In this document: piece by piece, positions 59,817 through 63,597 of the stretch
Numbering within the stretch: the first letter of the stretch is position 1
How the letters are laid out: each line of letters opens with the position of its first letter
From: Gammaproteobacteria bacterium
Lineage (GTDB): Bacteria; Pseudomonadota; Gammaproteobacteria; Pseudomonadales; Pseudohongiellaceae
DNA length: 64,000 nucleotides
Direction of reading: 5' to 3'
NCBI GenBank assembly: GCA_002711845.1
Contig: PASF01000008.1
Span: forward strand, 1 to 64,000
Translations under genes and position numbers: made by a program
The notes under the pieces: generated by a model
Seen by the model: the letters and a program-made list of their open reading frames with translations, nothing else
Told to the model about the DNA's origin: nothing
Database searches by the model: none

Positions 59817-61040
59817 ATGAAAAATGACACTAGTAAAGGTTACGTAGCATTATTGGGTTGGAGCCTGGCAGCCGTCGAAGCGGCAGAGGGCTTTGACCGG
59901 CGCTATGTCGTGGTCGCGCCAGACTGGGCCCAGGACTACTGTGACAAGCACAACATTCCCTACATCCCCTGGAACTTCGAGCGCCTGAATGATCGCTCCA
60001 TGGAGATTGCGCAACTGCTGCAGGAAAAGGGCGTTGACGTCGCCATTCCCCTGTTCGAAGAAACCGTAGAGTGGGCCGGCGCCATAAATGCGGTGCTGAT
60101 GGACAATCCACGTCTGTTCGGACAGTCCATCCTGTTCCGCGACAAGTCGCTGATGAAGCGTCGTGCTCAGCTTGGTGGTATCCGCGTCGGTATTTTTGAG
60201 GAAGCCCACGAGAAAGACGATGTCGTCCGATTTCTCAAGCGGGTCAATCAGACCCTGCTGAAACTGGACGGTGACCCCAATGACCCGATTCACCTCAAGG
60301 CATTCGACAAGGCGGGTTGCCTGGGGCACCGTGTGGTCAGAACCCCGGACGACGTCTACGCGATTCCGGATGAGGAATTCCCGATCCTGATGGAAAGTCA
60401 CCTAGATGGCTGGGAGTTTGCTGTCGAAGCGTGGATTCATGACGGCAAGATCCGGTTTCTGAACATTTCCGAATACGTCACCCTGGGTTACTCCGTATTT
60501 GTGCCGGCCACGCCGGATCTGGAAAAGTACCGCCCGCAAATCGTCCAGCAGGTCGAAAAACTGATCAAGACATTTGATATCCAGTTTGGTTTTGTGCACC
60601 CGGAATACTTTGTCACCAGTGACAACGAGATGTACTTTGGTGAAGTAGCGTACCGGCCGCCGGGGTTCAAAGTGTTTGAGCTGCTTGAACGGGTCTACGG
60701 CTTTAATGCCTACCAGGCATTGATCGTGTCGTTTGACCCCAAGACCACGGAAGAAGAAATTACCGCATTCTTCCCCAAGGAAATTGTAGACGCCAAGTGC
60801 CATGCCGGCTGCTTTGGTGTTTATCCCCGACGACGGGTGGTCAGCCGCATGGAGCTGCCAGAAGAGACTGAGGACCATCCGTACTTCGAGTCTCATGAAC
60901 TGACGCAGCCAATGGAAGAAACGGTGACCAAACGAACGGCATTCGGGACGCACTGGGGGCTGATCTATTTTACTGGCGATGATCCGTACAAAATGCGTGA
61001 TCTGTTGAAAAAACAGGAAGAACTGGATTTTTATGTCTGA
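59817..61040 (+). CDS. ATP-grasp ligase of unknown substrate
   Basis: The 407-residue protein has an N-terminal Rossmann-like part (VALLGWSLAAVEAA, YVVVAPDWAQ), then an ATP-grasp fold: lid Lys region RDKSLMKRR (108-116), HLKAFDKAGCLGHRVV (K161, in place of the usual Gly-rich KPxxGxGS loop), MESHLDGWEFAVEAW (adenine-side), and the metal/phosphate block FGEVAYRPPG (E276, R280). Such enzymes activate a carboxylate with ATP and join it to an amine or thiol. It overlaps the following gene by eight bases. GACAGGAGC supports the ATG. The substrate is unknown; it is not purD/purK/carB/biotin carboxylase by gross features. Confidence 0.85.
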   Translation: MKNDTSKGYVALLGWSLAAVEAAEGFDRRYVVVAPDWAQDYCDKHNIPYIPWNFERLNDRSMEIAQLLQEKGVDVAIPLFEETVEWAGAINAVLMDNPRLFGQSILFRDKSLMKRRAQLGGIRVGIFEEAHEKDDVVRFLKRVNQTLLKLDGDPNDPIHLKAFDKAGCLGHRVVRTPDDVYAIPDEEFPILMESHLDGWEFAVEAWIHDGKIRFLNISEYVTLGYSVFVPATPDLEKYRPQIVQQVEKLIKTFDIQFGFVHPEYFVTSDNEMYFGEVAYRPPGFKVFELLERVYGFNAYQALIVSFDPKTTEEEITAFFPKEIVDAKCHAGCFGVYPRRRVVSRMELPEETEDHPYFESHELTQPMEETVTKRTAFGTHWGLIYFTGDDPYKMRDLLKKQEELDFYV

Positions 61041-63009
61041 CACGCAACTGGCAGATTTGCTGCCGCGCATGGATGAATCGTTGCAGGTGCTGGCCAACAC
61101 GCCGGCACTGAGTAAGTCCCTAAAGATACGCCGCGTTCTGGATACTGCGCGGCGTATTCTCATGCATCCGGGCGGTTGCGAAGCACTGGAGCAACGCGCT
61201 CAACAAATGGACGCCAGCGGTGTTTTTCTGGACACGGACTGGGGGACCCCGGAAATTCTGGTGGCATCGCTGACGCGCCATGCGTTCCAGACCCGGGATC
61301 CTGATGTTCTGGTGCTGGAAGCGATGAGCGAGCTGAGATTGCTGGCCGTGGCCCGTGGTGATTACGCGCATGCATCGATATCGTCAGTGCAGGCACATCA
61401 CTTTCTGACGCAGGTACTGGCGCTGAACCTGGAGTTGATGTTTCAGGGAGTCAATGAGGCACAGCGCACAGCGCAGGGACGGGCCGCGGTTATACCTGAT
61501 CATCTGCTGCGCCATCTGGCCGAACGTATCGGCTACGAGCATATCATTGACAGCCTGATTGAGGAGATCTGGCGGGTACTGAAACAGCGACCCATTCAGG
61601 TTAACATGGTCAGGCAGATGGTCACCCAGATAGCCATCTGTCAGGTGAATCCGGACATCGAATTTCGCAGCAGCGGGCAGGGTGCTGATCGCCTGGTCAG
61701 CGCGCTGTTCGGGCCGACTGAAGCCAGCCGCGAAGACCCCGGGGTGGACATTTATCTCGAGCGGCTCGAACGCATGGATCAGGGCACCTTGCAGTCGGAA
61801 GCGACCGGCATGTCCAGAGCCATGCATGATACCGGACTGGTTTCAGCCTACCATGTGGTTTTACTCAGGCACCTGTGCGCCCATGACGATGTTGCCCACC
61901 TGGTTCACGATGCACTGGGACTGTCCAGCACCGGACGTGAATGCCTGTTGTGTTATCGCCCGCTGGTAATGGAACTGATCGACCAGGCAATACATGCAGA
62001 AACAGCACAGGCACTGTATGGCCTGACCCTGATGCTGGAACGCGGCATTCTGTATCAGTCGCCTGTGGCGCCGGCGTTGTGGCGGCAATTGTCACTGACG
62101 CTCAACCCGGTGGCGCAGGACAGACTGAAACTGGCTTACGGTGACGCGCAGCCGCCTCGGGTACGGTTGCTGGAAGGTGTGCTGTGCATGCTCGGTTTGC
62201 CTCTGGGCGTGGGGCAGGGCAACAACCCGACCTGTCAGTCTGCCAGAGCGCTGTCCATGTGGGCCTACAATGACCCGGACTACATGCTGCAGATGGTGGT
62301 CTGGGCGGCACGTGACGATGAAATTGTCATGCATTTTGAGGGGCAGGCCATCTCATCGCGCGACAGTCAGGCCGGGCTGGCGTCCGGCCTGGTGCTGGAT
62401 CTGGATCCGGTGTCGCTGCTGGTGGTGCCACACCTGGACCGGATCTACGCCGAAATGGGCCGTCGTTGCGTCGGCCGTGATGAAGACCCGCACCGCTGGA
62501 TCAACCCCGAGTTCCACGGCTGGTGGACCGGCCGCGGCTTCCGGATTGCGGTCGATATCGCCACCGGTCAGCTGCAGAAGCTTGATGAGTTCCTGCGCTA
62601 TTTTTACGCATCCTACCATCCATACTTCAACGACAATCAGCCCGTCATTCACCCGCAGCCTGCCGGCATAGCGGTCACTGACACTGCTGGGCGCTTCATC
62701 GGCTGGCATGCCATCACCATTCAGCGCGTGGTCCTGGACCCCGATCAGGTCATGCGGGTGTACTTCTACAACCCGAACAATGACAGTGGCCAGGACTGGG
62801 GGCATGGGGTTGTGGTCAGCACGGCAGGCAGCGGCGAGCGATTTGGTGAGGCATCATTACCGTTTGAGCAGTTTGCCTCGCGTCTGTATATTTTTCATTA
62901 TGACCCTCTGGAGCCCGGCAACCCTGAGGCGGTTGAGCAATCCCTGCTCGATGGCATAGCGGCCGATGTTCAACAAAGCTGGGCCGCCGCAAGAATCCCG
63001 GAAATCTGA
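61033..63009 (+). CDS. Unrecognised 658-residue protein with possible papain-like Cys-His-Asn site
   Basis: I do not recognise this family. Residues 1-380 are mostly helical, with no signal peptide or clear membrane helix. The C-terminal third has a cluster resembling a papain-like enzyme: VGQGNNPTCQSARALSMWA places Q395 six residues before C401 (as Gln19-Cys25 in papain), GWHAITIQRV gives H559, and YFYNPNNDSGQDWG gives N580, a Cys-His-Asn order with papain-like spacing from His to Asn. It could be a peptidase, transpeptidase or amidase. The eight-base overlap with the ATP-grasp gene implies a joint function. Confidence 0.75.
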   Translation: MSDTQLADLLPRMDESLQVLANTPALSKSLKIRRVLDTARRILMHPGGCEALEQRAQQMDASGVFLDTDWGTPEILVASLTRHAFQTRDPDVLVLEAMSELRLLAVARGDYAHASISSVQAHHFLTQVLALNLELMFQGVNEAQRTAQGRAAVIPDHLLRHLAERIGYEHIIDSLIEEIWRVLKQRPIQVNMVRQMVTQIAICQVNPDIEFRSSGQGADRLVSALFGPTEASREDPGVDIYLERLERMDQGTLQSEATGMSRAMHDTGLVSAYHVVLLRHLCAHDDVAHLVHDALGLSSTGRECLLCYRPLVMELIDQAIHAETAQALYGLTLMLERGILYQSPVAPALWRQLSLTLNPVAQDRLKLAYGDAQPPRVRLLEGVLCMLGLPLGVGQGNNPTCQSARALSMWAYNDPDYMLQMVVWAARDDEIVMHFEGQAISSRDSQAGLASGLVLDLDPVSLLVVPHLDRIYAEMGRRCVGRDEDPHRWINPEFHGWWTGRGFRIAVDIATGQLQKLDEFLRYFYASYHPYFNDNQPVIHPQPAGIAVTDTAGRFIGWHAITIQRVVLDPDQVMRVYFYNPNNDSGQDWGHGVVVSTAGSGERFGEASLPFEQFASRLYIFHYDPLEPGNPEAVEQSLLDGIAADVQQSWAAARIPEI

Positions 63010-63093
63010 CATCATTGTGTTACCCGTCTGGTGTATCATGATGCCCGGATAATGGCTGCGGACGAACATCAGCGGGCGGCAAGGATCATTGGT

Positions 63094-63582
63094 GTGAAGC
63101 AGGTAATGCAAAGACGGTTTGGTGAATGGCCGGTCACAGGCAAAGAGCAGCGCACAGCCTGGCTGGCCCTGATTCTGACGGCGATGGCTTTGCTGATGCC
63201 AGGGCAGGTGATGATGGCCATGCTGGCAGTTGCCGAGCCGGCGCTGGAGGCACTGCGTCAATGGCGCGACAGCTGGTGGCCCTGGCCGGCTTCGGCTCCC
63301 GTCGACGGCGGGCTGGCGCTCGACAAGATCATTCATTTTCTGCTGTTTGCCATGTGTGCCTTGCTGGCCTGCAGAGCCTGGCTATCGGCGGTGAGTGGCA
63401 TTTATATTGCGCTACTTTTGCTGGCGTTTGCCGGATTCACCGAAGTCATGCAATACCTGGTGCCCGGTCGCAGCATGAGCCTGGGTGACATGATTGCAGA
63501 CACCCTGGGGATTTTGGCGGGTGCAGGTATCTGGCAAGGGTACCGGCGTGTGACGATCCGCCCCGGCAGCAGCACGACATGA
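63094..63582 (+). CDS. VanZ-like membrane protein
   Basis: The 162-residue protein has about four membrane helices and the VanZ-family pattern: DKIIHFLLFAMCALLACRAW, FTEVMQYLVPGRSMSLGDMIA and a terminal DTLGILAGAGIW. VanZ-like proteins often occur in polysaccharide gene clusters, and their role is not clear. I start at GTG because AAGGA lies eight bases upstream; in-frame ATGs at 63052 and 63106 have poorer sites. The UDP-sugar epimerase gene follows 15 bases later. Confidence 0.82.
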   Translation: MKQVMQRRFGEWPVTGKEQRTAWLALILTAMALLMPGQVMMAMLAVAEPALEALRQWRDSWWPWPASAPVDGGLALDKIIHFLLFAMCALLACRAWLSAVSGIYIALLLLAFAGFTEVMQYLVPGRSMSLGDMIADTLGILAGAGIWQGYRRVTIRPGSSTT

Positions 63583-63597
63583 CCTTTGAGGACTGAC

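Follow-up and report, generated by a model that had tools for sequence, protein, structure and literature searches.

The question raised by this locus is what two overlapping genes, one for a probable ATP-grasp protein and the other for a large protein without a significant family match, do together. The window, by which we mean the whole 64,000-nucleotide stretch of DNA that was analyzed, comes from a source genome of 3.59 Mb in 15 contigs. The features on which the argument depends are the following.

59817..61040, + strand: gene A, an open reading frame of 407 aa, probably a divergent ATP-grasp protein, with L-amino-acid ligases as closest solved relatives
61033..63009, + strand: gene B, an open reading frame of 658 aa, predicted to be helical in its N-terminal part and possibly papain-like in its C-terminal domain
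61033..61040, + strand: 8 nt shared by the 3' end of A and the 5' end of B, where translational coupling is likely
62212..62235, + strand: B motif GQGNNPTC (Q395-x5-C401), invariant in 28/28 diverse B sequences
62701..62784, + strand: B motif GWHAITI...YFYNPNND, with candidate H559 and N580 (or D584), invariant in 28/28
63031..63582, + strand: VanZ-family gene directly 3' of B (Pfam VanZ, E 1e-13)

The coordinates of both reading frames and their overlap agree with what a sequence-only reading of this DNA had given, and the VanZ gene that it placed next to the module is borne out by the Pfam match. A and B are flanked by this gene and by map, which lies on the opposite strand and was named by eye; an epimerase-like frame, also named by eye only, starts at 63586 and extends past the end of the window. 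An AGGAG lies 5' of the ATG of A, and an AGGAAG is found some distance 5' of the ATG of B, within the end of A. The A-B spacing of -8 is also seen in locus L006, and the other values listed for loci with a full A upstream run from 39 to 239 bases, as estimates extrapolated to the first residue of the window's B. Both A and B are real genes under constraint, since synonymous codon differences outnumber nonsynonymous ones in comparison with L006 (138 to 6 for A, 246 to 50 for B) and with L088 (188 to 16 for A, 276 to 83 for B).

The earlier claim that A is an ATP-grasp ligase holds with moderate strength. The match of A to Pfam ATP-grasp_4 (E 5e-5, 23.4 bits) falls under the curated cut-off of 27 bits. 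The same model is listed at E 1 or better in 24/24 divergent members of the A family, the best at 3.2e-6, and an unrelated SANT-like model is likewise listed for 18 of the 24, the best at 7e-4. In NCBIfam, A finds PRK07206, argininosuccinate lyase, D-Ala ligase and PurK-type models only, all far below cut-off. The top matches of an A profile against the PDB are L-amino-acid ligases, 4wd3 (E 6e-4) and 3vot (E 1.7e-3), and are weak. K161, E204, E263, E276 and R280 are invariant in A alignments of 35 and of 24 sequences, and E193 is also invariant among the aligned family members. We take the invariant Lys, the Glu pair and the Arg to be ATP/Mg residues, by analogy with the roles of their counterparts in ATP-grasp enzymes. 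The predicted structure of A, with a mean pLDDT of 45, is too poor for a structure search. Together, these observations argue moderately for A as a divergent ATP-grasp protein, probably a carboxylate-amine ligase of that type. A resembles the L-amino-acid ligases (4wd3; BL00235, 3vot), which are of the ATP-grasp_4 class, in the ATP-grasp domain at residues about 180-303, the stretch covered by the PDB alignment, through the GE.A.R strand; it differs from them in the weakness of the match, the sub-cut-off Pfam score and the pairing with B. A separate ATP-grasp family, A-like at about 26-33% identity, occurs without B in the genus g5 (L206-L213), where 14 genomes carry it and the 8 inspected have conserved neighbors that include, by eye, an elongation-factor-P-like gene.

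For B, a papain-like site had been proposed from the sequence, and the motif on which that proposal was built is invariant, but no family or fold match accompanies it. Neither Pfam nor NCBIfam lists a match for B at E 1, and searches of PADLOC, PHROGs and PDB sequences likewise gave nothing significant. Profile searches of B matched no papain-like family or solved papain-like structure, and a C1 propeptide model is listed for 1 of 27 B members, at E 0.17. Across 28/28 aligned B sequences, with identity down to about 52%, the residues Q395, G396, N397, P399, C401 and Q402 are invariant, as are H559, N580, P581, N582, N583 and D584. The Gln-x5-Cys, His, Asn/Asp order of papain-like enzymes is present in this motif, which was chosen after the sequence was seen, and we take the spacing Q395-x5-C401 to equal that of papain Gln19 and Cys25. 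Invariance alone is weak evidence for a site because 89 of the 267 columns in the C-terminal domain, about one in three, are invariant.

The structure models give the candidate site no support because they are too poor there. The AlphaFold model of B has a mean pLDDT of 59 and is good for residues 1-160 only, which are predicted to be helical (block pLDDT 77-95). Values fall below 50 at 376-502 and 536-564, the regions that contain C401 and H559, and are worst at the candidate site itself, with block values of 26-30 around C401 and 29 at H559, and 62 at N580. That the model has a helix starting at 400, and strands starting at 562 and at 573, is no evidence, given pLDDT values of 26-30 and 29 at those places. 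A Foldseek search of the B model against the PDB returned nothing significant, the best E being 0.22. The conserved residues suggest, rather than prove, a papain-like site with Cys401-His559-Asn580 as candidate residues. When 299 genomes were searched with a profile for more distant relatives of B, with at most 4 candidates scored per genome, two matches came up beyond the clear family members, at E 0.022 and 0.07.

The distribution of the two genes is the strongest indication that they belong together. Of 397 genomes sampled across the phylum, 13 have B, the source genome among them, and full-length A (>700 bits) is found in exactly those 13; a further 11 genomes have weak A matches only, at E 9.4e-8 or worse. 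The Fisher value for co-occurrence over the 397 genomes is 1.2e-24 and, like our other Fisher values, takes no account of shared ancestry. In the sample of the family, B and full-length A occur in the same 9 of 99 genomes, and 14 more genomes encode a protein about 30% identical to A. Co-occurrence as neighbors, which the sequence-only reading had named as a check, is borne out as well: among the 80 named B loci, which are the best of at least 582 relatives, 70 have full-length A directly upstream of B. Six of the others have a partial A upstream, that of L068 being cut by the contig end, and four are without A; all nine genomes in which the local A is partial but uncut, or absent, hold a full-length A elsewhere, at 75-77% identity. 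The pair is found in three arrangements, A>B, divergent and B>A. Since the pairing has been retained through repeated rearrangement, a joint function of A and B is indicated. The pair is real and old, and the earlier suggestion of a single functional unit is well supported by the strict co-occurrence in both samples, the conserved adjacency and the presence of a second A where the local one has been lost.

Additional copies of both genes were seen as well. In L132 (10305-10634), which belongs to the same genome as L007, A is reduced to a C-terminal remnant upstream of B, and the same is true of L033, L051, L062 and L077; each of these five genomes has a second, full-length A elsewhere. The source genome contains a second module (L095:8338-14214; contig C1, about 311340-317207), in which a second-type A (A2) on the - strand is followed by two tandem diverged B copies on the + strand, with A2 read away from B and the B copies 52-54% identical to that of the window. 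The B tree separates a first type of 92 sequences from two smaller ones, of 5 and of 4 sequences, each of these two with support 1.0, and L115 and L116 are poorly placed in it; in the A tree, A2 forms a group of 16 with support 1.0. A2 adjoins an other-type B in the source genome, L118, L121, L123 and L181, lies in L184 beside a low-identity B that was not placed in the tree, and is alone elsewhere.

The carriers of the pair share a further property. Ectoine synthase (ectC) is present in 13/13 carriers versus 51/384 non-carriers in the phylum sample and in 9/9 versus 11/90 in the family sample. Within the window's genus, the comparison (8/8 carriers versus 5/7 others, P 0.2) is not significant. 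In these samples, the pair occurs only within ectoine producers, and most ectoine producers are without it (51 of 64 ectC genomes). Ecology and ancestry both confound this association, and the pair is possibly tied to osmotic adaptation.

The genes around the pair vary with lineage, and no third gene conserved across lineages was found near it. The region 3' of B contains a TlyA-like gene and a channel of the MscK type in Halomonas relatives, each cluster in 55 of the 80 best named loci (domains read in the G148 copies). Two Ectothiorhodospiraceae loci have an MscS gene 3' of B. A BCCT transporter is found one gene further on in an Alcanivorax pair locus, and another lies 2.6 kb away from the solitary A2 copy of G148. 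When four such channel and transporter proteins were used as queries against the 118 loci over 9 kb, channel relatives were found within 4 kb in 55 loci, of which only L055 and L068 are outside Halomonas-type records, and BCCT relatives were found in L019, L083 and L189. Over 23 contexts, channel or transporter neighbors number 4 versus 0.6 expected (P 0.004), in a post hoc comparison with contexts chosen by us and the 4 counted by hand; no channel or transporter gene was found in the other contexts of the 23.

The reading that we tentatively prefer, while placing it below an even chance, is that A and B are a ligase plus an amidase or acyltransferase that make and turn over an amide metabolite or modification in salt-adapted bacteria. 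In the scheme that we infer, the two proteins would form one self-contained module, probably cytoplasmic. A would activate a carboxylate with ATP, through the acyl-phosphate of ATP-grasp chemistry, and join it to an amine; B would hydrolyze or transfer the same kind of amide by means of a papain-like site at Cys401-His559-Asn580. Between them, the two enzymes would synthesize an amide-type metabolite or modification and then either turn it over or mature it; the setting would be that of ectoine-producing marine and halophilic Proteobacteria, possibly in osmotic adaptation. What the data establish is the two genes, their constraint, their strict co-occurrence and, in the samples, their confinement to ectC-bearing genomes; the two catalytic activities, the site in B, the action on one bond, the substrate and the osmotic role are proposals. 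A narrower version, which we regard as doubtful, is a new amide metabolite pathway confined to these ectoine producers. A would make, and B recycle, its product, which might be a compatible solute of peptide-like nature or else regulate solute pools.

Two other enzymatic readings have to be weighed against this one. The pair could act on protein: A would attach a tag, either one amino acid or a short peptide, at a carboxylate or amine of the target, and B would trim the tag or take it off, its large helical half binding the protein substrate. The long helical N-terminal part of B is large for a small-molecule amidase, and the non-significant Foldseek matches listed for B (E 0.22-1.9) include many helical-repeat proteins, but no cross-lineage protein target is apparent among the first 60 shared neighbor clusters, and we consider protein modification rather unlikely. 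It is also conceivable, although unlikely in our estimate, that B is an acyltransferase of the transglutaminase- or calpain-like thiol kind instead of a hydrolase and transfers the intermediate made by A in a linear two-step biosynthesis. A shared intermediate would suit the finding that every sampled genome with B also has a full-length A, and the motif of B is compatible with thiol chemistry; in sequence searches, however, B matched neither transglutaminases nor calpains nor any other thiol enzyme family.

The remaining proposals take their cue from the surroundings of the pair and from its distribution. The sequence-only reading had raised decoration of a surface glycan, in which A would amidate a uronate carboxyl and the VanZ and epimerase genes would belong to the same process. 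Indeed, B is followed by the VanZ gene and then the epimerase-like frame not only in the window but in the same order in L132 and L133, and in Marinobacter changyiensis a different, weak VanZ-like gene (E 6.7e-5, below cut-off) lies 3' of B. Of the 118 loci over 9 kb, however, only 4 (L006, L007, L132 and L133), all from close relatives, have a relative of the window's VanZ at 4 kb or less from A or B, and other neighbors are found elsewhere. Nor did the hydropathy scan show a clear export segment in either protein: the highest 19-residue value is 1.07 for A and 1.69 for B, the latter at 447-465, a marginally hydrophobic stretch within the C-terminal domain. The VanZ gene is probably not part of the module, and glycan decoration is not supported by these data and appears very improbable. 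A defense or mobile-element function, which the patchy distribution (13/397 genomes) might bring to mind, is hardly credible: PADLOC gave no match, PHROGs gave E 0.4 for A and nothing for B, there is no phage record and the one plasmid record is an unannotated 1.8-Mb Halomonas replicon, and among viral contigs 28 stretches fit a pattern, none of them a relative.

Returning to the reading of A and B as ligase and amidase or acyltransferase, known systems offer partial parallels. Glutathionylspermidine synthetase/amidase couples a CHAP amidase to an ATP-grasp synthetase. The CHAP part of this enzyme is named in a published account (PMC10318531). The proposed logic of A and B, by analogy an ATP-dependent amide ligase plus a papain-like amidase, would be alike, and the difference is that A and B are separate genes; neither has a Pfam match at E 1 to the glutathionylspermidine synthetase or CHAP amidase families. 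Among peptide-like osmolytes, N-carbamoyl-glutamine amide and N-acetylglutaminylglutamine amide (NAGGN) are known (PMC1224877), and a three-gene operon for NAGGN has been predicted in Pseudomonas aeruginosa (PMC3591346). The product of A and B would be similar to NAGGN-type compatible solutes only as a possible amide osmolyte of salt-stressed Proteobacteria. The NCBIfam library includes NAGGN-type protein models, and none of its NAGGN synthetase models matched B or A, the latter finding only weak matches to other models. Nothing ties A and B to the known peptide-like osmolytes. The amidoligase operons of Iyer et al. 2009 reportedly contain ATP-grasp and peptidase genes, and A and B are alike in general kind, a probable ATP-grasp ligase beside a possible thiol peptidase-like gene. 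The coupling of an ATP-grasp ligase to a thiol peptidase-like protein is in itself a known theme; what is new in A and B is the partner family, which has no profile match.

Among the titles listed by literature searches, none was recognizably on the A/B pair; prior mention is possible, and absence from print is not demonstrated. The available part of an ectoine paper on Halomonas elongata (PMC3187862) does not name ATP-grasp. The strict pairing of A and B points to an amide-making pathway not yet recognized and open to test. The strictly co-occurring module is carried by many Halomonas-type bacteria, and a good number of its carriers are in culture, which puts deletion tests of both genes within reach. 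If an unrecognized amide metabolite or modification is indeed made, the pair would represent a missing pathway in salt-adapted bacteria together with a new thiol-enzyme family.

Several other genes were seen near individual copies. A histone-deacetylase-domain gene, possibly an acetylpolyamine amidohydrolase, lies near A or B in L116 (6591-7709), L191 (12211-13311) and L054 (5615-6177), with weaker relatives in five Halomonas loci, and a TPP enzyme is a neighbor in L120, L125 and L186. In two Marinobacter-type genomes, a B paralogue is found near an AstE/AspA-like gene and a weak GCS2-type ligase gene (L119:11320-13841 and L124:7413-12868, with the domains read in L119), and in L124 it comes directly after a Memo-family gene. 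The HDAC, TPP and GCS2/AstE-like genes were rejected as module members, being too rare or lineage-bound. Finally, the lone A2 copies of L187 and L190 lie near genes that resemble, by eye, those of glycine betaine catabolism.
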